From: Microthyrium microscopicum
Lineage: Eukaryota; Ascomycota; Dothideomycetes; Microthyriales; Microthyriaceae
Assembly (NCBI GenBank): GCA_010405405.1
Contig: MU004233.1
Coordinates: forward strand, 1,748,384 to 1,812,383
DNA: 64,000 nucleotides
Reading direction: 5' to 3'
Shown here: positions 11,235 to 62,465 of the stretch, one piece after another
Layout: the number at the start of each line of letters is the position of its first letter
Position numbering within the stretch: position 1 is the stretch's first letter
The notes under the pieces: model-generated
What the model was told of the DNA's origin: nothing
Databases searched by the model: none
The model's input: only the letters and a program-made list of their open reading frames with translations
Position numbers and translations under genes: made by a program

Positions 11235-11354
11235 GGAGATTAGGATCCTATGCTTAAAGGTAAGCTTACTAAGCCTTAAGCATTAGAGGGGACTAAGCGT
11301 ACCTAGAGATAAGCTTATAGCTTAGCATATTTATAAAAAGGGATAATTTAATTT
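11235..11354 (+). repeat. Shared module M, copy 1 (after SNF2-like gene)
   Basis: Begins GGAGATTAGGATCCTATGCT and contains AAGCTTACTAAGCC, then GGACTAAGCGTACCTAGAG and ATAAGCTTAT. The same ordered blocks occur at 32832-32930 and 62343-62465, all on the plus strand. Two short palindromes (GTAAGCTTAC and ATAAGCTTAT) sit about 50 bp apart. Similarity to copy 3 continues into a TTTATAAAAAG..ATAATTTA tail. It has no coding sense. It could be a conserved 3' untranslated or structured element, or the end of a mobile unit. Confidence 0.7.
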
Positions 11355-12135
11355 TACGTCTTAACTAAATATAATATTAATATTAAGTTAGTATAAATTA
11401 TTATAGATATATAGGTACGTAGGTAAGTAGGTACGTTGCATAAAAGTAGATAGATATATTTAGTATAGCATCTACTATACCCTAAAAATAAGCAATATAT
11501 AGAGCCTTTAGCCATCCTATAGGTATATTTAATATACTTAACTTAGATAAGCGTATTATATTTTAATAGCTTGTAGTAAGCTATCTTCTCTTCTAACTAT
11601 TGTTTTACAGCTAGCTTATTAAACTTAAAATTATATAATAGCATAATTATAAAGCTTACTAGTTTTAGATTAGAGCTAGTTCTTATCTTAGACGCTATCC
11701 TCTTTTGTATAGTATATACTTAGGATTATAGTTTAAGTATAAATATATATAGTATTCTCTCTAATACGCTTAACTAGGTACTTAGTTTTAGAGTTATTCC
11801 TATATAACCTATAATATTTGCTTTCTAAACTACTAGTCTCCTTCTTAACTAATCTATACTATTTTTATTCTATCTTTATTACCTTCTTGTCTATACTAGA
11901 AATAATACTATACATAGTTCCTAAATCTAAATCTAATTTCCATATACGTAGTTTGTTAGCACTATTAACTACGTATAACTATACTTTTAGTACTTACTCC
12001 TCGTAGTACAAACCTTATAGTTAGTAGTTCCACCTATTACTAAGATGCTATTATTACTACCTACGTTAGTAGTATAATATACTCTTAGGTAATAGTTACT
12101 ATACTAACCTTGTTACAATTACTTAATTTAGTAGA
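11355..12135. other. No gene recognised
   Basis: AT-rich sequence with a TAGGTACG-type microsatellite near 11412-11440. A 62-codon open frame at 11818-12006 has a skewed Leu/Tyr/Ser composition and no recognisable motif. It is most likely chance. Confidence 0.4.
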
Positions 12136-13650
12136 CTTAATAACACGTAGTGTCCAAGGGAGCTAAGCTTATTAAGCATTCAACGCAATCTTATCTTATT
12201 TAAGGCTATAATAACTAAGGACTAGCGCTATACTAAAAATTCTAATATGTTGTAATATTAATAGGAACTTAAATTTATTAAGTAATTAGACGACCTAGCT
12301 TATACATTTAAGGAAGTTATTCTCTACAAACTAAAAGAACTAAATAAGTGCCTATATAATAAGTTGCTAGATAAGCTTATAAGCTCGTCGTGTAATAGCT
12401 ATACGTTATAGAAGCAAAAGTTAGACCGCTACTTAGCTATAAAGGGTATATAGAATATAGTATTTACTAGTAATAAGATATATTAGAGGAAGCTACCTTT
12501 AGCGTAACGTCCTATACAAGAATACTTAAATACTTACGTCTATAACTTCTTAAATTAATTCTATAAGCAATACCTATTAATAAACTATACTTATATAAGT
12601 AGTAAGCTAGGGCACATATAGTACGTCTCCAACTAGATTTATTAGGCATTAGAGGATAGGAAGTTTAAATAGGTTACCCCTAAATAGCTAGTATATAGGT
12701 AGTTATTCTATTTACTTAGGTAGTTATTATATTATTAGATTTAATTAGTAGAAATATTATACACGTTACTCTATAACTATATACTAGCAGACCTAAGAAT
12801 AAAACAAGATTAGGTTATATTTAGCCTTAGCTAATATCTTACTCTAGAAATAAAGTTATTTATATACTAAGTATAATACGATATATACTATTAATATTAG
12901 AATATAGGGTTAAGATATTACCCAGACTATTTTACCTAATAAAAAGTTAGCTAGACCTATATAATTAGCAAGAGTACATAATGCTAACTAGCTTACCTAT
13001 ATTTAAATTTATCCGTAGTTACTACATTTACTAACAGACAAAAAAACCTACATATATTAATATATACATTAAATTTTTAATTAATATAATGTCTATTACA
13101 GTATTATCGCTTTTACATACCTATAGCAGGTACCTACTTTATGCTTCAAGATATAAATAATTAGTACTACTACTACTTACAAAACTTCTAGTTACTTACT
13201 ACTAGCTACTGCTACTAGAGGGGAGGATACACCTAATAATAATAGTTACATATTAGAACATAAAATTTAAACTACGCTACAACTTAAAGGAAATAAAGCT
13301 ATATATTCTTAGCTAAATTAACGATTAACTACTTACTAAGTTAGTAAGTACCTAAAGTACCCTATCTATAGCGTTACTTAAATTTTGATTACTAACTCTT
13401 TACTATTAGCATATACGTAGTTTGACTATAATATAGGGTTATAATACTTAGTTAACTACGTAATGTATTAAAACACAACCTACTTAGACTATAAGGTATA
13501 CTTACTTTTAATTAATACTAACCTATATACTTATATTTATATACTAGTTATCTATATTATATCTACCTTTATTAGGAGTTCGTTATTACAATTTAATTAA
13601 GTAAAGAGTTATACAAGTTTAGATAGTTCGTTTCTTCCTTTTATATTACG
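12136..13650 (+). pseudogene. Unidentified decayed coding block
   Basis: One frame (codon 12517-12519; also 13090) can be followed for about 480 codons with RIP-type stops only. Fragments such as KELNKCLYNKLLDKL, QRPIQEYLNTYVYNF and IGLRYYPDYFTQQK have the look of a folded, helical protein. Several CA dinucleotides survive near 13.0-13.2 kb, so RIP is locally lighter. I do not recognise the family. It lies 0.8 kb downstream of module M copy 1 and on the same strand as the other large fossils. Confidence 0.45.
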
Positions 13651-14539
13651 TTATTTTATACTAACTATATATTATTAGTTAATAGTTACTACTAAACATA
13701 ATACTATAAAGCTACTCCCTCTTCTAGTCTTCTACTTTCTATTACCCTTTTTAACTACAGTAGACTATTTATTATATTTATATATATAATTTCTAGCCTA
13801 TCTGACATCCGTTATATTATAAGTCGTACTAGCACTATAGCGAAAGAATCTACCTCTAATAATCGTTCCAATCTAGATATTAACTATAATAACTTAATAA
13901 CTTGCGCTAGTCCCTCCTATAATCCTCACTATTCTATATTATTACCTAATATATAAGGCTAGCTAGTACCTACTATTAATAATAAATACTATTACGCTAA
14001 TTATGTTTATATAAAGCTAATAAAAGCATAGGTCTTTAAACTCCCCTTGCAAAATAATAAGCTATATAGTCATTAACAATATTAGATGCCCTTTAAGCAA
14101 CTTACTTTGCCTAAGTTACGTAACCCTACCAATTTCTATCTATATATTATTAATTAGGTATATTTATTAGTACTTAGCTCCTTAACTAGATATATAATAA
14201 AAGATCTTATTACTAGCATCGCTAGTAAAAGCGTAGTTATATAGAATATATATACGCTAAATTACTTTATACTAGCAACTAGTAGTTATAATTTCTATCT
14301 TACCCTTAGCATGCCTAGGGTAAAATAGATAAGTAATCTATACATATGCTTTATTAACTATAAATATACTAAAGAGTATATATTCAAAGATTTTACTACA
14401 AATACCTTACCCATCGCCTACTAGGGACTTACTACTTACTATTATAATAGCCTCTTTATTTACTATTTACTTATTGGATACAAATAAGGATATAAATAGC
14501 ATTATTATATCTCTATTACTACTAAACAAGTATTAGTAC
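13651..14539. other. Frame uncertain between two coding-like blocks
   Basis: Short protein-like patches occur in more than one plus-strand frame, with local CA retention near 14.0-14.1 kb. It could join the blocks on either side into one gene of about 3.9 kb, because both lie in the same frame class, but I cannot show continuity. Confidence 0.3.
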
Positions 14540-16000
14540 ATATCTTAGGCAGAGCCCTAGCGCACAAAGGCAAAAAGTAGGCAGATAATTAGCAAGAAGT
14601 ACCTAAATAGTTAAGTAATAAATAGCTATACCCTAATGTTTATAGTTAGCAAATTACTAATAACCTATATCTTACTAAGACTAAACTTAAGCCTAAAGTT
14701 AACAACTTTTTACTACTAGAGGCATTACTTAAGCTATATTAATAGAATGTAGGGTAATTTAAGCCCTCTAAACTAGGTAGTTAGAGCAAGAAATATAATT
14801 CTTATTATCTACTTAAATAGATTTACTTACTACGTATTAACTAACTCTATATCTTTAACTTATACTTATAGCTAAGTAATTATACCGTCGCTAAGTTAGT
14901 TACTAAATAGACTAATTTACTATTAGTAGGGTAGACTATATTATTAGGCTATAGAGCGTAGTACTCTATATAGGCTTCATATATGCTTTTTCTTTCTATA
15001 ATGTAGAGAAGTAGAAAGTTATTAATACTAGGATGAATTAATTTTAAGTATTCTATATTCTGCTTAAGTATCCTTAAAGTAACGTTAAAGATAATAAGAG
15101 GATAATATACCTAGCTAATATATACTTTATTTAAGTAGGACTTTTTTAATATAAATAGTACGTATAAGTTATTACTATCTAGTACTATCTAGTTAGTAAT
15201 TATCCTAGGATAAGCATTAGACTTAAAGCTTAATATAATTATACTACGTAGTGCCCCTTTCGTTATTTTATTAATATAAGTATAGCTAACGAGATATATC
15301 CTAGACGTTAATCTAGATAGAAGCATACTAGAAATAAGATATAGTTAGTTTATAATAAGTAGAAGTAGATAAGTTATATTACATAGTTAACACCTACCTA
15401 CGTAGTACTAAACTTAGAACTAAAATAACTATACAATAAAGCCTAAATAAAGGTATATCATAGATCTTAGCTCTTAATTAGTAACAATATTCCTTAATGC
15501 AGTAACATTAATATATTCTCGCCTCTTTAGTATAAAACGCATAACCACTAGGAGCATTAAACCATCTAGCTAACCATCTAGTATTAACCCATATTATAAC
15601 GAAGTAATATAGCTCTTAAAAAGGTAGGTAATATTTATATAGAAGGCTTACTAATTAGTTTTTAAAGTATAGGGTATTATAATATAATACTATTATTTAG
15701 CTACTAAGGTCTATTAAGAGGCATATATTAGCGATTATAGTATATAAACTTTAGGTACCTATATAGGTATATACCTAAGTAAAAGGTAGAGTTGCCTAAC
15801 TAACTAGAGTACGTTTACTTACTTATACTATACTTAGCTAGTAGACTATAGTTACTCTACGTGTTATATATATTAAGCTATTTGCTATTTTTTATATAGT
15901 CTATAGTTACTAGTATTTTTGCTATATATACTACTCTTTTGCTACTACTTTATTAGAGGTTATATATCATTATAGTATTAACTTTAAAGTAACTTTAAGT
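14540..16000 (+). pseudogene. Unidentified decayed coding block
   Basis: Starting around the RALAHKGKK-like stretch at 14551 a frame holds for roughly 450 codons, with segments such as KLILGQINFKYSILC and NLDRSILEIRYSQF and stops that fit Gln/Trp/Arg codons after RIP. It is in the same frame class as the 12.1-13.65 kb block, so one long gene is possible. No family is recognised. Confidence 0.4.
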
Positions 16001-30130: not shown

Positions 30131-30760
30131 ACTAGCTATAGCATCCTTAATTAGGATATTTCATAACCTACTACTAACAACAAACTATATAGCCTTACTA
30201 AAGATAACTTTAGAAATAATTTTAATCTTAAAGACATAGAAGAGGCCAGCCATAGCATCCCTAATTAGGATATTTCGCAACCTACTACTAACAACGAACT
30301 ATATAGCCTTACTAAAGATAACTTTAAAGATAATTTCAAACTTAAAGACATAAAAGAAGCTAGCCATAGCATCCCTAATTAGGATATTTCACAACCTGCT
30401 ACTAATAACGAACTATATAGCCTTACTAAAGATAACTTTAGAGATAATTTTAATCTTAAAAATATAGAAGAGGCTAGCTAAGGCCTTTAGACTTAAGACA
30501 TTTTGTAAACTACTAGTAACGAACTATATAGCCTTACTAAAGATAAATTTAAAGATAATTTTAATCTTAAAGATATAGAAGAAGCTAGCTAAGACATTTA
30601 GGATTTAGACATTTCGCAACCCACTAATAATAAACTATATAGCTTTACTAAAAATAATTTTAAGGACGACGTTAACCTTAATAAGGACGTAGATAAAGCT
30701 AGCTAAAGCCTTTAGAATCTAGATATTTTATAAATAGCTATTAATAAATTGCTATATTAT
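30131..30760 (+). repeat. Six in-frame 38-residue repeats in PIF1-like gene
   Basis: Units begin at 30131, 30245, 30359, 30473, 30584 and 30698. Spacings are 114, 114, 114, 111 and 114 bp, all multiples of three. Each encodes a core ELYSLTKDNFKDNFNLKD flanked by an EAS and a DIS motif. They are in the same frame as the helicase core, so they formed an N-terminal acidic/polar repeat domain. Unit 6 is the most diverged. Confidence 0.85.
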
Positions 30761-31637
30761 TATAATAAAGAGGATTTTAAAGATATTAATAATATAAGCT
30801 TAGCTAAGCAAGAGATTCAAACATTAGATCTTACTTAACTTAGTAGTTAAGACGTATATTTACTATATTTAAGTACTAGTTCTAATACGCCTATTCTATA
30901 GTCTTCTTTGCCTTTATATAAGCAAATTTCTTTAGACATTAATACTACTTCTATTAACTTTACTATAATAAATATTAACCTAAAACCTATTTAAGGCAAT
31001 ACTTTGCTTACCTAGGATAATATTAATATAGATATTAATACTAAGAAAAAGAATAATACTATATAGGTTTATTAAATCTTCTTAAGCCCTAAGTAGTAAG
31101 TAATTCTTAATTAAGTTATAGACTAAAGCAAAAGTATTTTTTTTATAGAATTTGTTAGTATTAGTAAGTCTGTCCTACTTTAAGAAATTATTACTAGGCT
31201 CTAAAGTAAGTATAAAAGCTAGAATAATTTTGTTATTATTATAGCTTTAACGGGACTTATAGCTTGTAATATTAGAAGAATAACTCTTTATAGTTTTGCT
31301 AGTATTAGCCTTAGAAAGAGATCTTTAGAGGAATACATTAAGAGTATAGCTATATCTACTTAGGAAAGGTAAGCAAAAGTAAGAGTTTTTATTATTAATA
31401 AGATATCTATAATTAATAGTAATCTCTTTAATAAGATTAAATATATTACTTAGTTAAAGAAGCAGAGCAATCTTTCTTTTAGAAGTATATAGCTTATAAT
31501 TACTAATAATTTCTTCTAGTTATCCCTAGTACTAGAAGCAGGAGAGTAATTAAAGTTTGCTTTTAATACTTAGACTTAAAATTTATGCCTTCTAAATACT
31601 ATTACTCTTTACAAGGTATTTAGATAATAAGATCTAG

Positions 31638-31686
31638 GTATATATATCTACTATTTTCTTAGACTACTTACTACTATTTAAAATAG
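31638..31686 (+). other. Probable retained intron in PIF1-like gene
   Basis: A 49 nt segment starts GTATAT and ends AAATAG. Removing it joins the phase-1 end of the upstream frame (31631-31637) to the downstream frame (codon 31689) and restores a continuous PIF1 reading through the VFRQ..D and EFASMLN motifs. Length and GT-AG ends suit filamentous fungi, and CTTAC near 31668 could be a branch site. Confidence 0.6.
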
Positions 31687-32831
31687 CTTTTAATAGATAA
31701 CTAGAATTCGCTAGCATGCTTAATTAACTACGTAAAGACTATACTAATACCTTTTTAATTAAGGTTTTCTAGAGCCTTAATAGAAACCTTAATTTTCCTA
31801 ATAGCATAGAGCCTACTAAGCTATTTCTAACTTATTTAGAAGTTACGTAGGCTAATTATATATAACTAGCTAGTCTAAGTAGAGGCAGCTATATATTTCT
31901 AGCTAAAGATAGTAGCCGTATTTCTATAGACATACGCTAGAAACTACTCTTTAACTTAATAGTATAATCGTAAATTACTATTAAGGTTAGTACTTAAGTT
32001 ATACTTATAAAGAATTTAAATAATATACTTATTAATAGTAGTATTAGAAAGGTTATTACGTTTATAATAGCATTAGAGTAGGTTAAGAATATAGCAAATA
32101 GTAAGTTAAACTTATTATCCTAAGCCTTAGTTAAACTTACATCTTAGGTCTATCCTAAAGAGATAGTTATTAGTTGTACTTAGAGCTATCTAATAGATCC
32201 TAACGCAATATACCTATTAGTATAATTTTCTTTTATAAATAGTATAAGCTAGAACTACTACTATTAGCCTAAACTCTAGAAGATTAAGCTACTAAATAGC
32301 TAATTCTAGGCATCTTGGCTATAAGTTCCTCTAATTTTAGCTTAGTCGTTATCTATTTATAAAGTATAAGGCTAGACCCTAGATTAGGTAAAGGTAGATC
32401 TTACTTAGATTTTTAAGCAAGGCTAAGCGTATATAGCTCTTAGTTGCGTAACTAGTATAGCAAGATTACAAGTTATAGGATTTTATAATACTATAATAAT
32501 AGTTTATAAGTCAGTTTAAGAGTTTTACGTAGGTTTATTAGATATAGTAGCAGCTAAACCTAATAATGCTCTATATACTTTACTATTAAAATTATTAGTA
32601 AGTAAAAGGAAGAGATAGTTATATAACGTATAACGTTTACTACTACTACTAAATGTACTTATAACGAATTAGACTTAACCTAAAAGGATAAAGACATAAT
32701 ATTATATATAAAGGCTATATTCTTATAGTTAGTTTGGTGTATTATATTTAGCGTAAATAAGAACTATTATATTTATAAATTATACTCTATAGGCTAAAAC
32801 TATACTAGTAATTAGTGTAATATATAGAATA

Positions 32832-35930: not shown

Positions 35931-35975
35931 TATCTAACTAAGCTATACTTATATAGTATAGATAATAGTCAAGTT

Positions 35976-39600: not shown

Positions 39601-39619
39601 AGGTATATATATAGACTTT

Positions 39620-41455: not shown

Positions 41456-41849
41456 ATAGTATCTACAGTAGGCAATTCATATTAACCTAAGCACTTTCCT
41501 TTTTAGGTTATATATTGCGTCAGGTATAATAGGTTTTAGATAGTTAAATATAGTAGTTAGTAGTTAGGCTAAAATAATAGCTAACACTTCCTTTAATAGC
41601 TATTTAAGCAATACTCTTTTTACTTTTTAGATAACTCTAGCTTTAGATATAGTAATATTAGCTTGCACGAAGCAACATCCTTAAGCTTTATAGAATTGCC
41701 TAAGAAGCAGTAAATTAAGATATTGTTGCTAACTTTACGATTCTAGTAATCGTTAAGTGCTACTAATTGTAATTAACCTTAATAGCTAAATATACCTTAT
41801 AAGAACGGAAAGGTAAAGAGTAATAATACTACTAACGAATACTCCCGGA

Positions 41850-42562
41850 ATAGGCTGCGGCTAGTAGTAGTGAATAGCACTAGACCAATACAGCTACCTT
41901 TTTAGGTAACGTGTACATTTAGCTATTAGACCTGCTTCATCTATTATTAAGTCTACTAAGTTCTCTAACGCCCCTATATTAAGCGCTACCCAGCAGCCCT
42001 ACGCTTATTCTATTAACGTTCTGCCTTCCTTAACGCTTAATAGCTACTATCTCCATCTAGATTTTACTAGCTCTAACAAAAATAGTAGTATAAAAAAGTA
42101 CTACCTAAATAAGCTACGGCTAGCGAAAAATATAGAACAAACACTACTACCTCTTACGATAGGTGCATAGGATACTCCTAGCAAATGCATGCTAAGTAGT
42201 AGTAAATAGTACCAGACCAATATAGCTACCTTTTCAGGTAACGTATACATTCAGCTATTAGACCTTCTTTATCTATCATTAAGCCTACTAAGTTCTCTAA
42301 CGTCCCCTAAATTAAACGCCACCTAGCCCTACGCTCTCTAGATAAAGATAGTAGCCATTCAGCGTTAATAAAGGAAGAACGACTACTATCTTCATCTAGA
42401 TTTTGCTTACTCACAGCCGCGTTCCAAAGATACGAGCTCCAACAAAAATAGTAGTATAGAAGAACATTACTCAAATAAGCTACAGCTAGCGAAAAATGCG
42501 GAACAAACACTACTACCTCTTGCAACAGGTGCACAAGATACTCCCAGCAAACGCATACCAAA
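41850..42562. repeat. Two tandem units, offset ~331 bp
   Basis: AGACCAATAYAGCTACCTTT occurs at about 41882 and 42213, and TTCATCTAGATTTT and AACAAACACTACTACCTCTT recur in each unit. The right unit keeps far more CA/TG than the left, so RIP falls off here from left to right. The 84-codon minus-strand open frame at 42307-42561 lies inside the right unit, has no recognisable motif, and is probably incidental. Confidence 0.75.
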
Positions 42563-43257
42563 AAGGAATACTAGAACGTTTAATATCCTTATTTAGTAAA
42601 GTACGTACAACTATTTAGGTAAGTATTTAGCGTTACCTTTTATAGTTATATTATTCCTCTACCCTTATCTACTATAAGTAATTAACTAAGTATAGCAAAA
42701 AGGTAGTACAAGTACCTAATAGCTTCTATAGTCTTTAGGCTACCCATAAGTGTTAACTTCCAAGGACATTTATTAACTAAACTACGAATTAGCATTTTGT
42801 ATAATAATAATCCAAATATCTACTTTACGCGTTTTTAGTCCTAGATGTTCATCCTCTACCTACATTAGCTTTATTATATTTAAGTAGGTAATTAAGTACT
42901 CTATAATTATATTAAAACTTACGTAATACTAAGGGATGATACTCATCCTATTATTAAAAATACTACTTAATAGCTTACTAGATATTTAAGCGCGCTTATT
43001 ATTTATAACATGCATGTATTTAAAAGTCAATATAATAATGCATAATGCATGTCTAAAGGCACGTTATATACGTTCTAGGCTTTCACCTCTAGGCTATACA
43101 TAATTTAGGGGAACAAGGATATTCTACAAGTTTAGACCAAAATAATTAGCTAAGCAAATAAAGGATACTTTTACTACAAAAGCTAACCCCCCCCCTCCAA
43201 CCTCCCCCCCTAATGTGCGCCAGCTAATAATATTTAGTATCACTTAGCAGTAATAAG
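42563..43257. other. No gene; poly-C tracts
   Basis: Moderately RIP-affected spacer. Two uninterrupted C runs (43187-43195, nine C; 43204-43210, seven C) are highly anomalous in this A+T context. No coding frame was followed. Confidence 0.5.
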
Positions 43258-48000: not shown

Positions 48001-48525
48001 GTATAATTCTAGTATGCGTCTAAATTAATTTTGCGTATTAAGGAAAATAGCTAATTAGGATTTTACTAGTCTAATTCAACTTAGCTACGTTATCTCGTTA
48101 GCAATATTCTATCTAGACGTTTTTATTACACTTATATACTTTAGAATCTAGTCTTTTAAAGGATGTTATTATATTTAAGAACTATCCATTACACGATAAT
48201 ACGTATATTATATTTATACTAAGAATAAGAGTAAAAGTTAGATATGCTTACAAGTATAGGCTTAGGATACAAGTTTTAGTTAATCCTAAAACAAGTATAG
48301 CTAGAGAAGAAAGTAATAAAGGAGAATTAAAGAAGTAGATATAGAAGGCTAGAGAAGTAATAAACAAAACGTTAAATTCCTTAATTATTAAATAAGGTTA
48401 TAGCTAAGCAATTGAATACAAGCATAAAATAATAATAGTAAGATTTATTACTCTAGTATAGCAAGAAAAGGAAGCTAAAGATATATTTAGTTAGATATAT
48501 AAATACATAGAAAACGATTCATATA
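48001..48525. other. No gene recognised
   Basis: AT-rich transition into the satellite. A purine-rich plus-strand stretch lies near 48310-48360. Nothing can be assigned. Confidence 0.4.
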
Positions 48526-49600
48526 GAGATTGCTAGAGTATATATACTAAACCTTAAATATTTTACTACTAGTTTTATTTAGTACTTATTCTAAGTTTAT
48601 ATAAGTATATACTAATATTTTAGTTTAAATATATTTATATAGGGATTACTAGAGTATATATACTAGACCTTAGATATTATACTACTAGTTTTATTACTTA
48701 CCCTAAGTTTATTTTATATAAGTATATACTAATATTTTAGTTTAAATATATTCGTATAGAGGTTGCTAGAGTATATATACTAGACCTTAAATATTTTACT
48801 ACTAGTTTTATGCCTTGCCCTAAGTTTATATAAGCGTATACTAATATTTTAGTTTAAATATATCCGTATAGGAGTTGCTAGAGTATACATACTAGACCTT
48901 AAATATTATACTACTAGTTTTATTACTACCCTTAGTTTATATAAGTACATACTAATATTTTAGTTAAATATATTCGTATAGAAGTTACTAGAGTATATAT
49001 ACTAGACCTTAATTTTTTTACTACTAGTTTTATTTAGTACTTATTCTAAGTTTATATAAGTATATACTAATATTTTAGTTTAAATATATTCGTATAGGGA
49101 TTACTAGAGTATATATACTAGACCTTAAATATTGTACTACTAACTTTATACCTTGCCCTAAGTTTATTTTATATAAGTATATACTAATATTTTAGTTTAA
49201 ATATATTCGTATAGGGGTTGCTAGAGTATGCATACTAGACTTTAAATATTATACTACTAGTTTTATTACTGCCCTTAGTTTATATAAGTATATACTAATA
49301 TTTTAGTTAAATATATTCATATAAGGGTTACTAGAGTATACATACTAGACCTTAAATTTTTTACTACTAGTTTTATTTAGTACTTATTCTAAGTTTATAT
49401 AAGTATATACTAATATTTTAGTTTAAATATATTCGTATAGGGATTGCTAGAGTATGCATACTAGACCTCTAATATTATATTACTAGTCTTATTACTTACC
49501 CTAAGTTTATTTTATATAAGTACGTACTAATATTTTAGTTAAATATATTCGTATAGAAATTGCTAGAGTATACATACTAGACGTTAATAACTATAATAGC
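48526..49600 (+). repeat. Ten-copy satellite with higher-order pattern
   Basis: The TGCTAGAGTA or TACTAGAGTA core starts at 48531, 48647, 48764, 48876, 48986, 49102, 49219, 49329, 49445 and 49561 (spacings 116, 117, 112, 110, 116, 117, 110, 116, 116). Units differ in a diagnostic segment: A has TTTAGTACTTATTC, B has an added TTTTATA, and D has the shortened TTAGTTAAA. They come in the order A-B-C-D, A-B-D, A-B, so higher-order duplication is evident. A 24 bp core at 48526-48549 matches 8-31 in inverted orientation. Confidence 0.85.
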
Positions 49601-50378
49601 GCTAGGTCTACTATTATTAATATACTATTTATAGATCTTAAGTTCCTATAAAATAAGTATATACTAATATATTTATTTAAATATCCTATATATTATATTA
49701 TAAATATATAGTAAGATATTTATTTATATATATTTAAATAGGTCTTACTAAACTATATAGATTAATAGAGCATCTTAGCAACTTTAATTTTTATCTAGCT
49801 ATACTTAATATTTACTACTATACTATAGTATATTTATTTATTATACGTACCTAGTATATATTTTAGTTATATATATATACGTTTAGTATAAGTTGCAATA
49901 TATCTAGTATTTATCTAATCTATAATCTAAGTAATACTAACCTAGTACTAATACTACTAAACGAGTTTCTAGAGTTATTATCACTAGATCCTATATACGT
50001 ATTATTGCTAGCTTTAACGTCTACATCTAAGTACAATTAGAGCAAAATTACTAACGAGCAAACCTTAGTACTAGTAAAGTTAAAGAGCCTAATTCTGCCT
50101 TACTTCTAAAAGAGAAAGTCTATAACTTTCCCCTATATAACATTTCTCTATATATAATAGGCGAAGATATAATATATAGTTTAAGTTAAATAAATACTAA
50201 GAGTAACTCAAATATAGAGCAGTAGGTTATTAAATTCATACCTAGTAGAATACCTAGCTTTAAACTTACGCTATATTCCTACGATTAAGCACTACCCGCA
50301 AATAGACTACGCTAGTCTATATAAGAGATAACGTTACAACAGAAGTAGTAATAGATTATAAATAATAACGTCTTTAGT
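49601..50378. other. No gene recognised
   Basis: AT-rich spacer between the satellite and the three-copy gene array. Slightly richer in G+C at 49.96-50.12 kb. No frame could be followed. Confidence 0.4.
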
Positions 50379-51039
50379 ATAATAGATCTAATCGTTTAGA
50401 GAGATTATAGAAAAAGGTAGGATTATAATAGGTCGCTATTCCTAGTTGTATATTAATAGAGTATTAAAAAGTAAGTACGTTAATATATATTTAGGTAGTT
50501 ACATTTATGTTATTTAAGTTAGTCTAAGTACTCTACTTTAGCTTATACCCTTTTCTACTAAGTATTATATTTCTAAATAATATAACGCCTAGGCTTATAG
50601 ACTAAGCTTTACTATTTCTATATTGCTATAACGATTATTCTTTTACTTAAGTTCCGCTTGTTCTATTCTAAGCTAATTCTAAGGCTATTATATTTATATA
50701 AGGCCTATAGTAAGTATGCATAACCTTACTAATAGATATAGCTTTTAGCATTAGCTACTTTCTAACTTCTAGCTATAAACTATAATTAGAAGTCAAGATA
50801 TAAACATACTTAAGATACTACTTCTTAACCTCGCTTAATAATGTACACCCTTTTTCTTTAATTATATAAATCCTAGCAAAGTATCTACTACATAATACAT
50901 TATAGCAAAGTGTCTATTTATCCTTCCTTATACATTATAGCCTTAACTTCTAGCTATGGACCTAAGTTTAGACCTATAGTAATATTATAATACTACTTCT
51001 TAACCTTACCTAATAATATATACTTTTCCTTTTCCTTAA

Positions 51040-52330
51040 GTATATAAAGAGTAAAGTAGTATATACTACTTCTAAAAGGTTTATATTCTACTATTTGCTA
51101 AACGTAAACTGCCTAGCTTAGGAATATATTTACTAGCTTTAGTACTAGACGTTTTATAAGTTTGTATACTATATTTTAGTAATATTTTAGATTATGTCTA
51201 GGGTTATAATATATATTAATATATAATTATATTTAAGAGTCTTAGGTTAGAGTAGGAATGAAAGAGTAGAAGTTAGTATTATCGTCTATTAATACATTAA
51301 TACATATAGAAGTAAACTTAAGATACTTTATCTTCTTATTTAGAGTATATAAATACGTCTCTAGTTTATTATATTTATATTCTAGGTTAAGTAGGTCGTA
51401 GGAATGTAGTATTTAGTACTAGCGCGCTAGGACATCCTTATTATATATTGCTTTTATATAGATGCTATTAATATCTAATTTAGGTCCTAGCTAACTCTTT
51501 ACTAGGTCTAAATTATAAAATAGATCTTCCTACTAGATAAAGACTTAAATATTCTATATTAGGTATCTATTAAGCGTAATCTTATAGTATTACTAGATTA
51601 TACCTTTAATATAGTCTAGTTATTATTAAGCAAAAAGTAGAAAGGTTATATTCTATAAACTCTAAAACATAGAAGTAATAGAGAGCGCGTTAAATATACT
51701 ATTAGTATTATATTTAGAGTAAAAGTAAAATAGTATTATATATATAGTCTTACTACAAACCTTAACGTTAGAGTCCCTATAGAAATCTTAAGTAATAGCG
51801 TATCCTACTTTAGCTATAGTAATTATATATTTAGTAGTTACAAGTTTAGTAGCTATAAGTTTAGTAGTTATAAGTTTAGTAAGACTAACCTTATTACTCT
51901 ACTAAAGGTACTTCTTAGTAATAACAATAAAAATAATTCATATAATAGTCTCTCTAAACTTATATTATATCTAATAGTTAATAGCCTTTATAAATAGTAG
52001 ACTCTTATTAGACTCTTCTAGGTTTAGCTAGCTAATTTAGGAATTAGAAAATAGAGAATCTTATAGAATCTAATTAAAATATATCTATTAATTATTTATA
52101 GGTTAGAAATATACTTCTATAAAGATAGCTAGTTTATGTTTACTCTATATAATATATTAGTATATTATATCTTAGATTTTATAAAGATATTCTAATAAAT
52201 ACAACTTTTATATAGTACTAAATAGCGTAATTAGGTTCATTATAATTATACTAGTAGTATAATAAGAGCTAAATAAGACATTATTAGTAAAGGTTTTCTT
52301 TTAAAAGCTAGTACGTTATTAGAATTAATT
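51040..52330 (-). pseudogene. Unidentified gene, tandem copy A (decayed)
   Basis: Minus-strand gene fossil homologous to the better preserved copy C. It includes the Thr/Lys/Leu/Val six-residue repeats at about 51835-51885 (GTTTAGTAGYTATAA or ACAA repeats on the plus strand). RIP damage is heavy and no long open frame remains. No family is recognised. Confidence 0.5.
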
Positions 52331-52959
52331 AATAGTAATAATAAGAATCTATAAAAATTTTAATATTAGGACGATAGTAATTACGACGCTCTTCTACGTC
52401 TTCATATTAGGTAGGAGGATAAGTTTAGAGAAAGCTAGAGGGTTATCTTACTACTTAGTATAGAAATACTCTAGTAGTCTTTAGCCTATTATTAATTTAA
52501 GTAGGAGTAAAGCTAAATAACCTTTTTCTAGTAATATTATTAAGTAAAGCATTTTAGGTACTTAATCTTAGGCTACAAGTTAGTTTATTTTATATATAGT
52601 AGTAGCCTTCTCTAGTTTTATTAGTATATCTTAGTCTAGGCAAGAGCCTTAAGTTAAGTTATCTTAACTTTTTATATCTCTATCTAAGGGTTTTCGCTAG
52701 TTAGCACTATAATCTTACTACTCTTAGCCTAGATACTTACGATACTACTCCTTAACCTTACCTAACAATATACATACCTTCCTTTCCTTTAATTATATAA
52801 ATCCTAGCAAAGTATCTACTACCTAATACATTATAGCAAAGTATTTATTTCCTTATCTTAAGACATTATAGCCTTAACTTTTAGCTATAAACTAAAGCCT
52901 AGCGGACCTATAGTAACATTATGATACTACTTCTTAACCTTACCTAATACTATATACTT

Positions 52960-54250
52960 TTCCTTTTTCTTAAGTATATAAAGGATAAAGTAGTATATAC
53001 TACTTCTAAAAGGTTTATATTTTACTATTTGCTAAATACAAACTACTTAGCCTAGAAATATATTTACTAGCTTTAGTACTAAATATTCTACTAGTTTGCA
53101 TACTATATCTTAATAATATTTTAAATTATATTTAGGGTTATAATATATATTAATATATAATTGTATTTAAGAGTCTTAGGTTAGAGTAGTAATAAAGGAG
53201 TAGAAGTTAATAACTCTATCTATTAATATATTAATGCGTATAGAAGTAAACTTAAGATACTTTATCTTCTTATTTAGAGTACGTAAATATATCTCTAGTT
53301 TATTATATTTATATTCTAGGTTAGGTAGGTTGTAGTAATATAATATTTAGTACTAGCGCGCTATAATATTCTTATTATATAAGGCTTTTATATAGATACT
53401 ATTAATATCTAATTTAGGTCCTAGCTAACTTTTTACTAAGTCTAAATTACAAAATAGATTATTCTACTAGATAGAGACTTAAATATACTATATTAGGTAT
53501 TAGTTAGGCATAATCTTATAATATTGCTAGATTATACCTTTAATATAGTCTAGTTATTATTAAGCAAAAAGTAGAAAAGTTATATTTTATAAGCTCTAAA
53601 ACCTAGGAGTAGTAAAAAGTATATTAAATATGCTATTAGTATCGTATTTAGGATAGATATAAGATAGTATTATATATATAGTCTTACTACGAACCTTAAT
53701 AGTAGAGTCCCTATAGATATCTTAAGTAATAGCGCGTCCTACTTTAGCTATAGTAGTTGTACGTTTAGTAGTTATAAGTTTAGTAATTATACGTCTAGTA
53801 ATAGTAACTGCATTACTTCTAAAAAGGTAGTTATTAGTAATAATAATAGGAATAATTCATACAATAGTCTCTCTAAACTTATATCGTATCTAATAGTTAA
53901 CTACCTTTATAGATAGACTCTTATTAACCTCTTCTAGGTTTAGCTAACTAGTTTAGGAATTAGAAAATTAAAAATCCTATAGAATCTAATTAAAATATAT
54001 CTATTAATTAGTTATAGGTTAGAAATATACTTTTATAAAGATAGCTAGTTTATATTTGCCCTATATAATATATTAGTATATTATGTCTTAGATTTTATAA
54101 GAATATTCTAATAAATATAACTTTTGTATAGTACTAAATAGTACAATTAGATTTGTTATAATTATACTAGTAGTATAATAAGAGCTAAATAAGACGTTAT
54201 TAGTAAAGGTTTTCTTTTAAAAGCTAGTACGTTATTAGAATTAATTAATA
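52960..54250 (-). pseudogene. Unidentified gene, tandem copy B (decayed)
   Basis: Same gene as copies A and C. The six-residue repeat zone lies at about 53757-53797 and is shorter by roughly one unit. Copy B lacks the leader present to the left of A and C, meaning beyond the gene's 3' end, so the duplication breakpoint was downstream of the gene. Confidence 0.5.
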
Positions 54251-55015
54251 GTAATAATAAGAATCTATAAAGGTTTTAATATTAGGAGGGTAGTAATTAC
54301 GATTTTTCTATACGCTTTTAAGTCTTCATATTAGGGAGGAGGATAAGTTTAGAGGAAGATATAGCGTTATTATACTAGTATAGAAATACTCTAGTAGTCT
54401 TTAGCCTATTATTAATTTAGGTAGAAGTAAAGCTAAATAACCTATTTTTATTAATATTATTAAATAAAGTATTTTAGGTACCTAATCTTAGGCTATAAGT
54501 TAGTTTATTCTATAAGTAGTAGTAGCCTTCTCTAGTTTTATTAGCATATCTTAGTCTAGGTAAGAGCCTTAGCTTAATTTATCTTAACTTTTTATATTTC
54601 TATCTAAGAGTTTTTACTAGTTAGTACTATAATCTTACTACTCTTAGCCTAGTTAGAAACAGGATAGACTATAATAGATCTAATTATTTAGAGAGATTAT
54701 AGAAAAAGGTAGAATTATAATAGGTTGCTATTCCTAGTCGTATATTAATAGAGTATTAAAAAGTAGGTACGTTAATATATTTAGGTAGTTATATTTATAT
54801 TATTTAAGTTAGTCTAAGTACTCTACCTTAGCTTGTACCCTTTTTTGCTAAGTATTATATTTCTAAATAATATAACGCCTAGGCTTATAGACTAAGCTTT
54901 ACTATTTCTATATTACTATAATAATTATTCTTTTACTTAAGTTTTACTTATTCCATTCTAAGCTAATTCTAAGGTTGTTGTATTTATATAAGGCCTATAG
55001 TACCTAAGTATGCGC

Positions 55016-55056
55016 AACTTCGCCGCGCGGTTATCAGCTCCTCTTGCTAGCGGACA
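55016..55056. other. GC-rich unmutated patch inside copy C
   Basis: Between GTATGCGCAAC and ACAGCTTTT copy C holds about 30 bp including CGCCGCGCGG and CTCTTGCTAGCGGA. Copy A has a shorter, A+T-rich sequence at the matching place (about 50717-50750). Adjacent bases to 55.2 kb also keep more CA/TG. It looks like an insertion or repair patch acquired after RIP, or a region that RIP missed. Confidence 0.5.
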
Positions 55057-55319
55057 CAGCTTTTATCATTAGCTACTTTCCAACTTCCTATTACAACTTC
55101 CAGCTATAGACTATAATTAGAAGTCAAAATATAAACATACTTACAACACTACTTCTTAATTCGTAATCTAGCGAAATATATACTACCTAAGAAGCCTTAA
55201 CTTCTAGCTATAGACAAAAGGTTAGACCTATAGTAATATTACAATACTACTCCTTAACCTTATCTAATAATATACACTTTTCCTTTTCCTTAATTATACA
55301 AAGGGTAAAGTAATATATA

Positions 55320-56600
55320 TAAAGGGTAGAGTAGTATATACTACTTCTAAAAGCTTTATATTCTACTATTTGCTAAACGTAAATTGCCTAGCCTAGGAAT
55401 ATATTTACTAGCTTTAGTACTAGACGTTCTATAAGTTTGCGTACTACATCTTAGTAATATGTTAGAGTATATTTAGAGTAATAATATATATATAATAGTA
55501 TTAGAGTTAGAATAAGACTAAAGTTATAGACAGTACTCCAAACTTTACCTCTATCTACTAATACGTTAATACGTATAGAAGTAAACTTAAGATACTTTAT
55601 CTTCTCGTTTAGAGTACGTAAGTACGTCTCTAGTCTATTATATTTATATTCTAGGTTAGGTAGCTCGCAAGAATACAGCATTTAGTACCAGCGCGCTAGG
55701 ATATCCTTATCGTATATAGCTTTTATATAGACGCCGTTAATACCTAATTTAGGTCCTAGCTAGCCCTTTACGTAGTCTATATCTAAATTTCAAAATAAAT
55801 CTTCCTACTAAATATAGACTTAAATATACTACACTAGGTATCTATTAGGCAAAATCTTATAGTATTGCTAGATTATACCTTTAATACAATCTAGTTATTA
55901 TTAAGTAATAAGCTAAAAGGTTATATTCTATAAATTCTAAAACATAGGAGTAGTAGAGAGCGCATTAAATATGCTATTAGTATCGTATTTAGGATAGATA
56001 TAAGATAGTATTATATATATAGTCTTACTACAAACCTTAATAGTAGAGTTTTTATAGATATCTTAAGCAATAGCGCGTCCTACTTTAGCTATAGTAGTTA
56101 CACGTTTAGTAGTTACAAGTTTAGTAGCTACAAGTTTAGTAGTTATAAGTTTAGCAAGACTAATCTCATTACTTCACTAAAGGTACTTCTTAGTAATAAT
56201 AATAGGAATAATTCGTACAATAGTCTCTCTAAACTTATATTATGTCTAATAGTTAATAGCCTTTATAGATAGTAGACTCTTATTAACCTCTTCTAGATTT
56301 AGCTAGCCAATTTAGGGATTAGGAAATAGAGAATCTTATAGAATCTAATTAAAATATATCTATTAATCGTTTATAGGTTAGAAATATACTTCTACAAAGA
56401 TAGCTAGTTTATATTCGCTCTATATAATATATTAGTATATTATATCTTAGATTTTATAAAGACATACTAATAAATACAACTTTTATATAGTACTAAATAG
56501 CGTAATTAGGTTCGTTATAATTATGCTAGTAGTATAATAAGAGCTAAACAAGACGTTATTAGTAAAGGTTTTCTTTTAAAAGCTAGTACGTTATTAGAAT
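55320..56600 (-). pseudogene. Unidentified gene, tandem copy C (best preserved)
   Basis: One minus-strand frame reads about 420 codons with RIP-type stops. From the N-terminal side it has a helical segment (KLAIFVEVYFQPIND), then FRETIVRIIPIII, short TTKLVA-like repeats, IYIILSYIYPKYDTN, GPKLGINGVYIKAIYDKD and a 76-codon stretch that is still open (55451-55681) with CELPNLEYKYNRLE and FTSIRINVLVDRGKVW. The protein is not a transposase or helicase that I recognise. Three tandem copies suggest a former dosage-amplified or unequal-crossover locus that then attracted RIP. Confidence 0.55.
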
Positions 56601-57015
56601 TAATTAATAGTAACAATAAGAATCTATAAAGGTTTTAATATTAAGAGGGTAGTAATTACGATTTTTCTATACGCTTTTAAGTCTTCGTATTAAAGAGAAG
56701 GATAGGATTAGAGGAAGATATAGTATTATTATATTAGTATAGAAATACTCTAGTAGTCTTTAGCCTATTATTAATTTAGGTAGAGTAAAGCTAGTAACCT
56801 ATTTTTATTAACATTATTAGATAAAGCATTTTAGGTACCTAATCTTAGGCTACAAGTTAGTTTATTCTATATATAGTAGTAGCCTTCTCTAGTTTTACTA
56901 GTATATCTTAGTCTAGGTAAGAGCCTTAGCTTAATTTATCTTAACTTTTTATATCTCTATCTAAGGGTTTTCGCCAATTGGCACTATAATCTCACTACTC
57001 TCAGCCTAGTTAGAA

Positions 57016-57329
57016 ACAGAATAGGCTAAGTAAGTACTTACATACTAGACCCTAGAGTAGAAAGTGCAGTCATGTAGACTTTGCGCCGTATTAGACATAC
57101 ACAACTTAATAAGAGCCTAAGAGGACTCTATAAGTATTTCGTAATCCGCGATACATATCCAGGATAAGTTAGGCCTAGCAAGCTCGCCGTCGTTTTCATT
57201 TCCTGACTAAAAGGCCAACATCTAGTCCCTAATGACCTAGATTACCTGCAGGTGTAGTTTATATAAGAAAAGGGGCAGAGAATAAGAAGTCGCCCTCACC
57301 ACAATAACCTACTTCTCATTAAAACTAGG
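57016..57329. other. RIP boundary region
   Basis: Directly right of tandem copy C the base composition changes abruptly to a mildly affected state, with frequent CA and TG. No gene was found in this 0.3 kb. Confidence 0.5.
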
Positions 57330-57831
57330 TATTATGTATACGTCGACGCTCTTAACCCAATGTATACTTATAAAGTCCTATATACATTTAAATCTAATAT
57401 ACTAATTCGCTATATTAACTAGGCAGCCCTAATTATAAGACAATGCGCCATGTTTCTAACTACACAGTTAAACGCCTATATAGAGCCTAACACGTTCTCT
57501 AAGATCGCCCTAGCGTTGAACGTATTCTATAAACTCCTAAGCGTAGTCATAAGCAAACATACAGTTAGAATAGAATTCTACAAGCAATAGGATATAGATA
57601 GATTTAGCCTTACTCAAATCGGCCGTAGTAAAGGTAAAACAGGGCTAATCCAATACGTCAACATTAGTATCTATATATAAGCTAATAAACTCGTTTGCTA
57701 TAAAGAGAAAGTTCTATGCTTCGTGTCTAGCTTACTAACAGACGTAGAGTAGATTAAATATATCAATTTACAAGCAGGTAAGGATTCAAGTACCAAACCA
57801 TTAAGGAAACCAAGAGGGATTATCGTATAAT
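57330..57831 (+). pseudogene. Short decayed frame, unidentified
   Basis: The frame of codons 57336 and 57573 is readable for about 165 codons with only four internal stops (all TAG or TAA, fitting Gln/Trp) before TAA near 57829. Segments are DALNPMYTYKVLYTF, IEPNTFSKIALALNVFY, IEFYKQQDIDRFSLTQIG and YKEKVLCFVSSLLTDVE. No family is recognised. The composition is normal for a protein. Confidence 0.45.
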
Positions 57832-60420
57832 AGCAAGTAGTAAGCAGATACGCGTCAACTAATTAAAAAGTATCCTAGCTATTCAATTCAGTCAATAAGT
57901 ATTAAGCCGCCAAGATAAGAAAAGCACTCTATATATATCATGTTTCATATCTCGCCAGGCAGTCTAAAAAATAGTAATGCGCTAGGTTTAATTATAATAA
58001 AGGGTTCTAGCTTTAGAACCATGTCGTTCCTAGCTCAATTAGTAGAATTAACAGTAATATTGTTTAGGTAATGAGTAGACGCCAGCGCAAACATATAAAT
58101 CAGCATAGTTTCAGCTATAGATAAATTCATAAAAGCCTCAATGTAGGTACTTTAAGTTATAGGGTATAGTAAAAGAACTCAGAATAAGTTAGAGTCTAGT
58201 ATAGTATAAAAGTAATACCTAAGGTATTATAGTATACAGCGTTCGCTATAAAGGGTTAGTCACTAAGATATTTAATTTACCTAGTTAAGCAAATAAGTAA
58301 TTAGCTTACATAAAAAGAATACGAACGAATATGCCGCTACTAAGCACAAAGAAAATAATAAATAAAGAAGGCAAAGAAGAGAAAGGAAAGTATGTATTTT
58401 CATAAAGCGCAAAGAATAATAGTATTACAAGGAGGTATAGCCTAATAGGCATTAATTAGTCCGTTACCATAAGGCTTATATCCACACATCTAATTAGATA
58501 GTAAAATAGGCGCCTAGTACATAGCTTACCTAGCATTACGAAATTAGCATAGACTAGTACAGAACAAGCGTAGCCCATAATAGGCATATCTTCATTTCGC
58601 AAAAAAGAACGGCTAAACACCATTCGCTTAGCTTTTTATACAAGTACCTAGTATAGCGATTTTTAAAGAAAGAGATCAGAAAACAGAGCCACACGCGTGT
58701 TCACTAAGCCAACGGTTTTATATTTTAAATAATAATACTTAATATATATAGGCTATATTTAGACCCATCCATCATCGTCATCTTATAGGTTTTCAAAGTC
58801 TGCGTCTATAATAAGCAAAGACTAGTAGTTAACGAAGGTCAAGGATAGTATACTATCCAAAGTATAGAACCTAGCATAAAAACGACAGTCTTCCACCTTA
58901 GTAGTTATATCGTTAATATACACAATTACGTAACTAGTAACTATTGCTCCAGACCATCTACAGTCTATAATACATTCCCAAGAGCAAGGCATATATAGTA
59001 TAGAAGTAGTAGTTACTTATACAGTTACTAGAACGCTAGTAACTCCGCGGCGAATTAATCAAATCAGGTCCAACAGAGGTTAATATGCTCTAAAGGATAG
59101 TAGACGAAAGAATATTACGCAGACTAGGTATAAATTCAACGTATATCATATTGAATACAAAAGGGGTAAGTGTACACTTTCAAGCAAGGCGCGACTAGAT
59201 AATGTTCCACATACTAAGAACGACCTATATATTAATGCAATCCAATAGTCATCCAAATATAACGCAATATATATATAGGTAGACGCAATTGCAGACATAT
59301 CATTTAACAAAACTATAAAGTTAGTAAATTCTATAACTTCATCTAGCAGTAAACAACCTTAGATTCGTAGTTTCAAACCAAATTCTCAGTAATAACCAGT
59401 TATAGTAATACCCAAATAAGCCTAAACATTATTTCCCACACCATAGCCTTACGAAAGTCAGTCTCACAGAATATTAAAATTGTACTAGGCCAGAAGGCTA
59501 ATAGCACCCCACAGGCTACAATTGCGGTCGCCCCAAATTACATTAGAAATAAGTAGGTGGAGACCTTTAGACCTACCAATATTAATAGCATCAAGCAAAA
59601 GTCGACTCAGCTAGCTTGCTACATTACTATCGATGGGGTTGTTATTAATAATAATAGCAAATTAGCTTTCTTCCAGCAAATATTTCCACGCCTCACAACA
59701 AGTTTGCTTACTAACTTAAAGTATAGAGTTAATTTTTGTAGTTATAGAGTGTAAGCTAAACCATTGTAAAAGCCACGGAACATTAAAATCTTCCAAGGGC
59801 GTAGTACAGAGAAAGAAAGTATTTACTTTAGTTATTATTTAGATCAATAGCGTAGTATCAATAAAACAATACTTATAGATAAGATTTCATATTTCGCCAG
59901 GAATTCGGTCAAAATGAACCACAAATACTACAGAATTTATACAAGTCATAGTGTTCATAGCTATTAACGTACGTCAAACATGTAAATGTATATCCATCAC
60001 AATTATAATAAATTCTCCAAAATTGACAGCCTAATTACTAAAATACAGGACTAAACTCTATTTGCCTAGGTCGTATTTTTATAGTAAGCAAAACAGCACA
60101 ACAACGAATATAGGGAATAGGTATATAAAGTAATAGAGAGAAGATTACTAAAATTATAAAAGAGGGAAAGGAAGTTAAGGATTACGTTGCTATCTAATAT
60201 TTATACTACCGTCAGAATCGGCACAACATAGAGTTTAGTTATAATTTAGCGTTATGTACAGTATAGGCCTTAATTGGTCCATTATTATAGGCAGCCAAGC
60301 CAATCAGGCCATGAAAATAGCACTAGCATTACTTAGTCTAATACGAAACAAGCTTAGCGCAAAATATACCTATCGCTGCCTTACTTTATATCAAGCCACT
60401 TAGACGTTCATTAACCCACC
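57832..60420. other. Mildly RIP-affected spacer, no gene assigned
   Basis: About 2.6 kb with scattered open stretches. A plus-strand frame around 59491-59754 is open over 65 codons from a GTG and extends upstream with one stop (QKANSTPQATIAVAPNY before it). It has no recognisable motif and could be a remnant exon. Segments at about 57940-58650 and 59870-60400 look distantly related: both have TCATATYTCGCCAGG and, later, CTAGCATTAC with ACAAGC. This suggests an old duplication. Confidence 0.35.
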
Positions 60421-60541
60421 AATGCTATTATGTAATTCTTCAAGATTTCTTTTAGCTATATCATGTTCATTTAAGGCACTAACTTAGCAAAAGTCTAGCT
60501 AAACATCTTTTACAGTAACGCGTAAATAGTATTTGGTATAT

Positions 60542-62196
60542 ACTATTCCAGAGAACATATCAGATAAATAATAAAACTCTAGCTCGCCGTATATTATATA
60601 TCAAACGATTTATAAAAACAAGACTACAGGGCAGGCTAACAAGCATATTAGCATAGCTCCTTTGAGGGAAAGTATCCCTTCAAGCAAAATACAAAAAACA
60701 CTCAATAATTATATTACAGTTCTAGGCACGCGTAATACTACTCCCCTCAACGCCCATATACTATTCAGTTTTGAGACAGATATATCTCAATTTACCTATC
60801 ACACTATAGTTATAAAGTTGTCCAAAGCTTCCAAGATATTAAATAACCGCTTAGAAATATACATAAAGATAATGCAGGCTTATCATAACATTAATAATGC
60901 CAATATAGGAAATCCAATATTACAGAGTCAGTATTGTATTATAACAGTTAGTCAAATAGCCACAAATAGTATTAACGGCAAAATTAACGCCTCTTCATTA
61001 TTCCTAAAAACTTCAAGGCTCATTAGGGGAGGACGTCAAGTACGTCTCAATCTTAATAAACTCACTAATTACTACTTATTTCCAAGCAAGATTGTCACGC
61101 TTCGTAATAAGAATGCGTCAAAAAATTACTTTTCAGTAACGAAGATTCTAAATCCGCCGCAACAGCCATTAGTCCAGTCTACCATACTTAATCTCGATAG
61201 CATCAATAACTTAACTAGCCATAGGACAAGTACCAGCTCCCAACCTATTATAACTCTTATCGCATTCAGGCTATATTTAATAGACGCAGACCTAGACTTT
61301 ACGCCCTTAGTTACTCTATTAAAGGCTACTAAGGATATCAACGCCAATTTCATTATACTAACAAGACCCTTTATCAACAGTAACCACCCTCTAGTGCGTA
61401 CCAGCGACTTTAACCTCCCTATTAGATATCTACACAACCCTAGTACTATAAGTCTCAAGGACCTTTTTCGCGCCTACATAACTACACCGCTTCAAGAACT
61501 AGTCAACATAATACTAAATATCCAGATCATTATATATCCCTCTATACGCGATACAATTACCACGGACGTAGTTTAGCTTCAGGATCGGTTTACGGATCCT
61601 TATATTATACTTAGATTACTAAGGCAAGTCCAAGTAGGGTCAAATCCTATTATAGTCAACATAAATGAAGTACTAGTCAGTATATCATCACAAGACGCCT
61701 TACAGCAAATACGCATGTCTAAAGTAGCAGGTAGATTACTACACAAGATGCAACCAGTTAAACGGGCATATCAAGAAATTATTAAACAACGTACATTCTT
61801 TCCAGTATTTCCACCCTTAGAATGCAAACTTTTGCAAACCACATCTAGGGAACTACCATTTACTTAATCAGGTCCAAATTTAGATATTACACATCTAGCA
61901 CTAGGAGACTTCATCCCCACTAAACCCAATATCCTTATAATACTATTATTATTACTATCACTTGCTAAAGTATTATACATTACCTTATTATAATACTAAT
62001 ACAAGCTAACACCGCTTAAGTTATAGACGACGTTTTATATATTAATTCAAGATTTGTCTACAACAACCACAGCATAGGAACATACGCGCGCATAGTTCTC
62101 AATCTACTAGTAATATTAGACATAGATCCAAGGGCGGATATAAAACATAGACATATTATTAGCAAAAGGTACAGAGTAGATATCATTAGACTATAA
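60542..62196 (+). pseudogene. DNA polymerase alpha subunit B (POL12-like), decayed
   Basis: The B subunit tethers primase-polymerase alpha and is built on an OB fold plus an inactive phosphoesterase fold. Frame 60662-61573 is open for 304 codons. It shows ALSKASK-type and NPILQSQYCIITV segments, GKINASSLFLKTSR, a LFPSKIVTLRNKNASKNYF strand pair, and LTRPFINSNHP at 61358-61390, which is the ILTGPFID.HP motif. The same frame continues through TAG 61574 and TAA 61865 with FFPVFPP at 61796-61816 and DITHLALGDF. After a ~50 bp stretch near 61970-62025 with intron-like traits (GCTAAC, AG) the frame shifts by one and carries GTYARI at 62077-62094 and YRVDIIRL to a stop at 62194-62196. Upstream the frame is readable to ~60542, with stops at 60569-60574. 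The far N-terminus is not found. This is a duplicate, mildly RIP-hit copy, since the essential gene should exist elsewhere. Confidence 0.85.
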
Positions 62197-62342
62197 GTTA
62201 AGCAAGAAAAAACACTAATTCCAACAAGCTATACATAACAGTTAATCAATAAAAGCAATTGCGCTAAGTATTATATATAAACAATAGATAACATAACAAG
62301 ACCAAAGTTACTAAATTCAAAGGTATAGAAATTTTAAAACAA

Positions 62343-62465
62343 GAAATCAAACCCTATGCTTATAGGCAAGCCTACCAAGCCCTAAGCGTAAGAAAGGACT
62401 AAGCATACCTAAATATAAGCTCTCAGCCCAGTATGTTTGTAAAAAGTCATAATTTACAGACTACG
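62343..62465 (+). repeat. Shared module M, copy 3 (after POL12-like gene)
   Basis: Reads CCCTATGCTTATAGGCAAGC, CCTACCAAGCCCTAAGCG, GAAAGGACTAAGCATACCTA, then ATAAGCTCTCAGCCCAG and a TTTGTAAAAAGTCATAATTTA tail. It is the least mutated copy, matching 11235-11354 and 32832-32930. It lies about 147 bp beyond the stop of the POL12-like frame. Confidence 0.75.

Follow-up and report, generated by a model that had tools for sequence, protein, structure and literature searches.

Why does one short DNA module stand, in one direction, behind decayed copies of unrelated replication genes? The question is raised by a 64,000-nucleotide stretch of DNA from Microthyrium microscopicum (contig MU004233.1 of assembly GCA_010405405.1, positions 1,748,384 to 1,812,383), which is referred to below as the window and whose own numbering is used throughout. 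A preliminary description of the window had noted three blocks of about 100 bp past a PIF1-like, a POL12-like and a SNF2-like gene, and had suggested that they might be a shared 3' regulatory or structured element, or else might form the right end of a mobile unit carrying different cargo. The module is real: three homologous copies of it lie in one direction in the window, which bears the signature of repeat-induced point mutation (RIP). Tentatively, and with less than even confidence, we favour reading the module as a dispersed, non-coding repeat, short (~160 bp) and old, that is situated in the 3' flanks of genes and was fossilised by RIP.

Three copies of the module in a RIP-mutated window

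The window was compared with itself by blastn (word size 9, low-complexity filter off, E up to 1e-4). Copy 1 was aligned with copy 2 (11193-11329 / 32790-32927, E 5e-23) and with copy 3 (11247-11350 / 62353-62456, E 4e-18), and copy 2 with copy 3 (32842-32926 / 62351-62434, E 4e-12). A second self-comparison, all against all and on both strands, used a RIP-tolerant matrix in which transitions (C/T, A/G) are tolerated and C and G are weighted. Queries of 300 bp were run against 2-kb pieces, pairs within one known tandem cluster were removed and overlapping hits were merged. Scores of 133.5, 113.6 and 94.9 were obtained for the three module pairs, against a maximum of 42.8 in 8000 comparisons of sequence regenerated with the same dinucleotide statistics. 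From 159 raw hits above a score of 46, five entries were left, three of which are the module pairs and two the tandem-array match and the palindrome described further below; tandem clusters aside, the module is the sole dispersed family over threshold in the window. The RIP-tolerant comparison gave no longer homology of the module to other parts of the window, and flanks outside the module did not score above regenerated sequence. No fourth copy was found in the window with a three-copy profile at E up to 10.

All three copies lie on the plus strand. Copy 1 (about 11193-11350) was delimited by blastn and the RIP-tolerant alignment, and a weaker match with copy 2 extends it left to 11170. Copy 2 (about 32790-32927, the right edge being approximate) has its weaker match with copy 1 from 32765 and shows no similarity to the other copies past 32927. 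Copy 3 (about 62298-62456) has a strongly diverged left shoulder, and its match with copy 2 begins at 62335. The spans differ accordingly from pair to pair: 11170/32765 to 11329/32927 for copies 1 and 2, 11194/62299 to 11350/62456 for copies 1 and 3, and the middle only, 32825/62335 to 32927/62435, for copies 2 and 3. The three blocks of the preliminary description and their common orientation are thus upheld by both comparisons, but their limits have to be redrawn, the modules being slightly longer (~160 bp) with a core of ~80 bp. The motifs quoted for them turned out to be partly composite. GGCAAGCTTAC is exact in none of the three copies, which read GGTAAGCTTAC, GGCGAGCTTAC and GGCAAGCCTAC, whereas copies 2 and 3 contain AAGCCCTAAGCG exactly and copy 1 alone contains GGACTAAGCGTACCTAGAG exactly.

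The conserved core (11250-11329 in copy 1 coordinates, plus strand) differs by 2, 4 and 4 transversions per pair in 80 columns. In the left shoulder the three pairs differ by 6/60, 10/57 and 15/57, and the right shoulders of copies 1 and 2, with 13 transversions in 20 columns, show no homology in the alignment used. RIP does not produce transversions or indels, so that the transversions and an indel between copies show divergence before or apart from RIP. The indel, of one base in copy 2, also speaks against a common coding frame of the module; differences between copies by codon position (4/4/8, 3/10/5 and 3/9/7 for the three pairs) do not settle the coding question.

The RIP signature extends over most of the window. 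Among the 2-kb bins, GC content ranges from 22 to 34%, TpA/ApT from 1.25 to 2.00 and (CpA+TpG)/(ApC+GpT) from 0.18 to 0.92. In 24 of the 32 bins the last ratio is 0.18-0.36 together with a TpA/ApT of 1.58-2.00, indicating depletion of CpA and TpG and an excess of TpA. By this signature the window resembles ascomycete heterochromatin, and the host would, on composition, be a filamentous ascomycete. From 57 to 64 kb the signature is weaker and strand-biased, with CpA retained and TpG lost on the plus strand. Counts at 57000-64000 are 27-46 CpA versus 3-13 TpG per 500 bp, a pattern that mutation of chiefly one strand would give, and this bias begins abruptly at about 57000. The sole open frame of at least 130 codons in the window, one of 304 codons, lies in the POL12 relic described below, where it probably persists because of the one-sided loss of TpG.

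Gene relics upstream of the module

Pfam scans covered about 45 kb per strand, with gaps on both strands (1-3000, about 36.5-42.5 kb, 48.5-57 kb), on the plus strand alone (57-58 kb) and on the minus strand alone (22-24 kb). The sole matches were to the PIF1 and POL12 families. Both detected genes are followed by a module in sense orientation. When three modules were placed at random on random strands, both genes had a sense module within 300 bp in 69 of 2,000,000 trials and within 500 bp in 173 of 2,000,000; a module within 500 bp on either side and on any strand was reached in 2898 of 2,000,000. This test was devised after the data had been seen and concerns two genes only, and on these terms the link between module and gene ends looks stronger than random placement.

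The relic before copy 2 is a broken copy of a PIF1 helicase gene, as had been proposed. Its conserved part (31076-32543, plus strand) matches Pfam PIF1 (2.7e-8) and the PDB chains 7otj_A (6.7e-19), 8xak_A and 5o6b_A (4e-27). The last residue that aligns to a solved PIF1 is at 32543, 247 bp left of the edge of module copy 2, and the stop cannot be placed. In three ungapped stretches (122 positions, picked from one alignment against one PDB chain, 7otj, with POL12 left aside), 39 of the 76 differences could have arisen by C>T/G>A alone and 4 by the opposite changes, stops counting forward only. Without the seven stops the counts are 35/69 forward and 4/69 reverse. A candidate intron of 49 nt (31638-31686, plus strand) has GT...AG ends and keeps phase 1 on both sides of a frame change, with no clear branch site. 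We rejected the possibility that this relic is the helicase of a Helitron: it is closest to nuclear PIF1 chains, and the alignment extends into their C-terminal part. Two further features were observed nearby. Immediately upstream of the PIF1 domain, 30132-30793 holds a 114-bp repeat in four to six copies; it stays in one frame, interrupted by few stops, and would read as a 38-residue repeat. About 0.8 kb past module copy 2, at 33736-33883, there is an imperfect palindrome of 148 bp whose score of 46.6 is barely over threshold.

Before copy 3 lies a broken copy of POL12, the gene for DNA polymerase alpha subunit B (conserved part 60575-62196, plus strand). The OB domain and the phosphoesterase domain are matched by Pfam DPOA2_OB (6.7e-26), Pfam DNA_pol_E_B (7.6e-15) and PDB 8b9a_B (4.6e-29), and the C-terminal tail was read by eye; a longer POL12 query in another frame gave no PDB match at E 0.01. 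The stop, also read by eye, is at 62194-62196, 102 bp from the left edge of module copy 3 and 147 bp from 62343, which agrees with the gene and the distance first described. A candidate intron of 50 nt (61970-62019, plus strand) starts with GT, contains a branch-like GCTAAC and keeps phase 0 on both sides of a frame change; it ends in AAG, which is unusual.

The phase-keeping stretches that start with GT in the two relics would be introns. With one such candidate in each gene, the PIF1 and POL12 relics are probably DNA-level copies that kept their introns, and retroposition, to which these stretches (read by eye) are opposed, was rejected. Both are normally single-copy housekeeping genes.

The stretch before copy 1 fared differently. 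A coding-like relic is present (9701-11060, plus strand, with low-stop frames at 8669-9475 and 9281-9769), but the SNF2-like label given to it found no support. Pfam had no SNF2 match there on either strand, nor did the plus-strand segments 9401-11202 and 11351-15001 yield one when E was relaxed to 10, and the plus-strand frames had no SNF2 match in PDB. PDB matches to unrelated proteins (E 0.44-0.5) are taken as chance, and the few SNF2 motifs readable by eye were set aside, being unsupported by any search. For the verified PIF1 and POL12, the statement that the genes are unrelated, and that gene duplication does not explain the module, holds; we rejected duplication as the source on this ground and on the flank scores given above.

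Origin of the module

Under the reading that we tentatively favour, the module would probably be a non-autonomous mobile element, copies of which came to lie in gene 3' flanks. PIF1 and POL12 would be DNA-level copies that now lie within a repeat-rich block, and the entire block, genes and modules together, would later have been mutated by RIP. Mobility of the module itself is suggested by the three copies at unrelated places, with flanks no more alike than regenerated sequence. If the module is such an ordinary short element, it would add another RIP-decayed repeat that prefers gene 3' flanks.

Several observations weigh against this reading. Free insertion does not predict a sense module behind both genes, and the reading therefore has to assume that insertion was preferential. 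Nor would freely decaying scrap be expected to keep its core better than its left shoulder, as the module does (Fisher p 0.074, 0.022 and 0.0007 in pairwise tests that are not independent). Terminal inverted repeats common to all copies were not established, and the positions of the right arms do not correspond. Inverted arms of 22 nt (82% identity) at copy 1 were equalled by 14 of 600 random windows, those of 19 nt (79%) at copy 2 by 179 of 600, and at copy 3, which has no inverted arms to speak of, 525 of 600 random windows were as good. Among 12 control windows, inverted repeats of at least 12 nt occurred in nine and of at least 19 nt in two. Being good at copy 1 only, the arms were rejected as terminal repeats. 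The preliminary description had proposed a search for target-site duplications and a matching left end, and neither came to light: no duplication consistent between copies 1 and 3 was found, in AT-rich sequence that yields many chance matches, and no shared left end or second dispersed family exceeded the threshold in the window, although short ends would escape detection. RNA polymerase III (Pol III) A and B boxes were absent from all three copies on either strand, even when each box was permitted as many as two transitions; the scan is a strict one, passed by 0 of 456 background windows, and RIP decay could hide boxes.

The position of the module behind both detectable genes, in sense orientation, would also fit a second reading, in which it forms the right-hand terminus of a mobile unit taking up whole genes with their introns and about 100-250 bp of 3' flank. 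PIF1 and POL12 would then be cargo, and copying would have turned the genes into repeats and so exposed them to RIP. This account, which we consider rather unlikely, would explain how housekeeping genes came to be both copied and inactivated in this region, and it agrees with the candidate introns of what look like DNA-level copies; a conserved core with variable shoulders also fits a terminus. Captured genes and conserved 3' ends have been described for fungal Helitrons (PMC4289320, PMC5148889). On the other hand, the common left end was not detected, with the limit on short ends stated above, and the canonical Helitron 3' end (a hairpin followed by CTRR-T) is present on the plus strand in none of the three copies. 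A Helitron-like 3' end on the minus strand occurs in two of the three copies, and 135 of 456 background windows also pass. The Pfam scans detected no Helitron Rep domain in the scanned parts, where RIP decay hides proteins, and the PIF1 here matches nuclear chains. According to PMC4289320, fungal Helitrons seem to capture genes less readily than those of plants and animals, which counts against a unit with cargo. Of the right-end proposal in the preliminary description, then, the sense link to gene ends stands, and neither a left end nor a canonical plus-strand Helitron end was detected. In its fullest form, the idea is that a fungal mobile unit copied replication genes whole (PIF1, POL12 and perhaps one more), together with introns and 3' flank, had the module as its right end and lost its cargo to RIP; this we regard as doubtful. 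If true, it would show how essential single-copy genes become duplicated despite RIP, and the module would serve as a handle for finding all such events in the genome.

The same association with gene ends in sense orientation, and the better conservation of the core over the shoulders, would also be expected if the module were a native 3' element of these genes, such as a terminator, an RNA-processing signal or a small RNA gene, that was copied with them. Folding gives this idea, which is the regulatory or structured element first proposed, a partial footing. With P taken for the mean z of the core relative to three random windows, the minus strand of the core gave z values of -1.92, -1.05 and -1.37 (mean -1.45, P 0.012) and the plus strand -0.37, -0.32 and -0.82 (P 0.19). 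With the extents first described, the values were -1.58, -0.44 and -2.30 on the minus strand and -0.43, 0.29 and -2.23 on the plus strand. Folding of the alignment against column shuffles, which do not preserve dinucleotides, gave z -5.2 (minus) and -2.7 (plus). This is weak evidence for minus-strand structure in the module. Covariation did not add to it: none of 33 pairs is altered on both sides, three sequences giving little power, and the pairing and covariation that were observed are also attained by all 500 letter-shuffled controls. Rfam had no match at gathering threshold in the whole window and, at E up to 10 in 62200-62600 only, two matches far under gathering scores. With no verified gene end before copy 1 either, and as we know of no unrelated genes with a common 160-bp 3' element (no search was aimed at such a precedent), a native 3' element is in our view improbable. 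Least probable is a reading under which the three blocks would be remnants of a single, longer common repeat, such as a truncated retroelement tail or a solo long terminal repeat, and would stand at gene ends by coincidence. The module is old, diverged and short, and the limits of the pairs differ in a way that debris could explain, copies 1 and 2 matching further left, 1 and 3 further right and 2 and 3 in the middle only. However, no more extended homology to any other part of the window was found, and random placement would seldom bring modules to both genes.

Two other identities were considered for the module. A transfer RNA or other known RNA was rejected, there being no transfer RNA and no Rfam family. 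An internal dimer (shift 49-50) is not claimed: copies 1 and 2, at 20.4 and 21.6, lie just over the background 95% level of 19.3, and copy 3 scores 16.7 at a different shift.

Other repeats in the window and known systems

The window contains further repeats. Three head-to-tail units of ~1.9 kb, 85-87% alike, occupy 50806-57012; in each of the two pairs that were counted, about 1775 aligned columns contained 44 transversions. At 36000-42600, repeats that are related to one another and 69-93% alike form a complex cluster. The tandem arrays at 1-404 (period ~89) and 48517-49684 (period ~116) share short inverted stretches (RIP-tolerant score 47.6). A weak inverted pair of ~90 bp (5801-5892 / 29638-29552, 75% alike, blastn E 4.5e-5) stays under the RIP-tolerant threshold.

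No description of the module was found in the literature consulted, which was not searched by sequence. RIP-tolerant module patterns had no match in viral contigs or in prokaryote genomes, as expected of a fungal element, and the plasmid and phage matches to copy 3, the sole copy tried, reach at most 29% coverage and look like chance.

For a unit with cargo, fungal Helitrons (Helitron1 and Helitron2/FoHeli) would be the nearest published parallel that we met. As described in PMC4289320 and PMC5148889, they resemble the present case in a conserved 3' end, variable sequence to the left and possible captured genes, and PMC5148889 gives an asymmetric terminal inverted repeat and an ATTTT or CTCCTGT end as hallmarks of Helitron2/FoHeli. 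The module differs in having no hairpin with CTRR-T on the plus strand, no Rep domain in the scanned parts and no 5' partner that could be detected. With fungal miniature inverted-repeat transposable elements and short interspersed nuclear elements, the module has in common that it is short, non-coding, dispersed and near genes, whereas common terminal inverted repeats, a target-site duplication or Pol III boxes are not demonstrable in it. The window as a whole is like the RIP relics in AT-rich regions of filamentous ascomycetes in its loss of CpA and TpG, its excess of TpA, its stops and the C>T/G>A changes in dead genes; it differs from them in that it holds copies of PIF1 and POL12 and not transposons alone.

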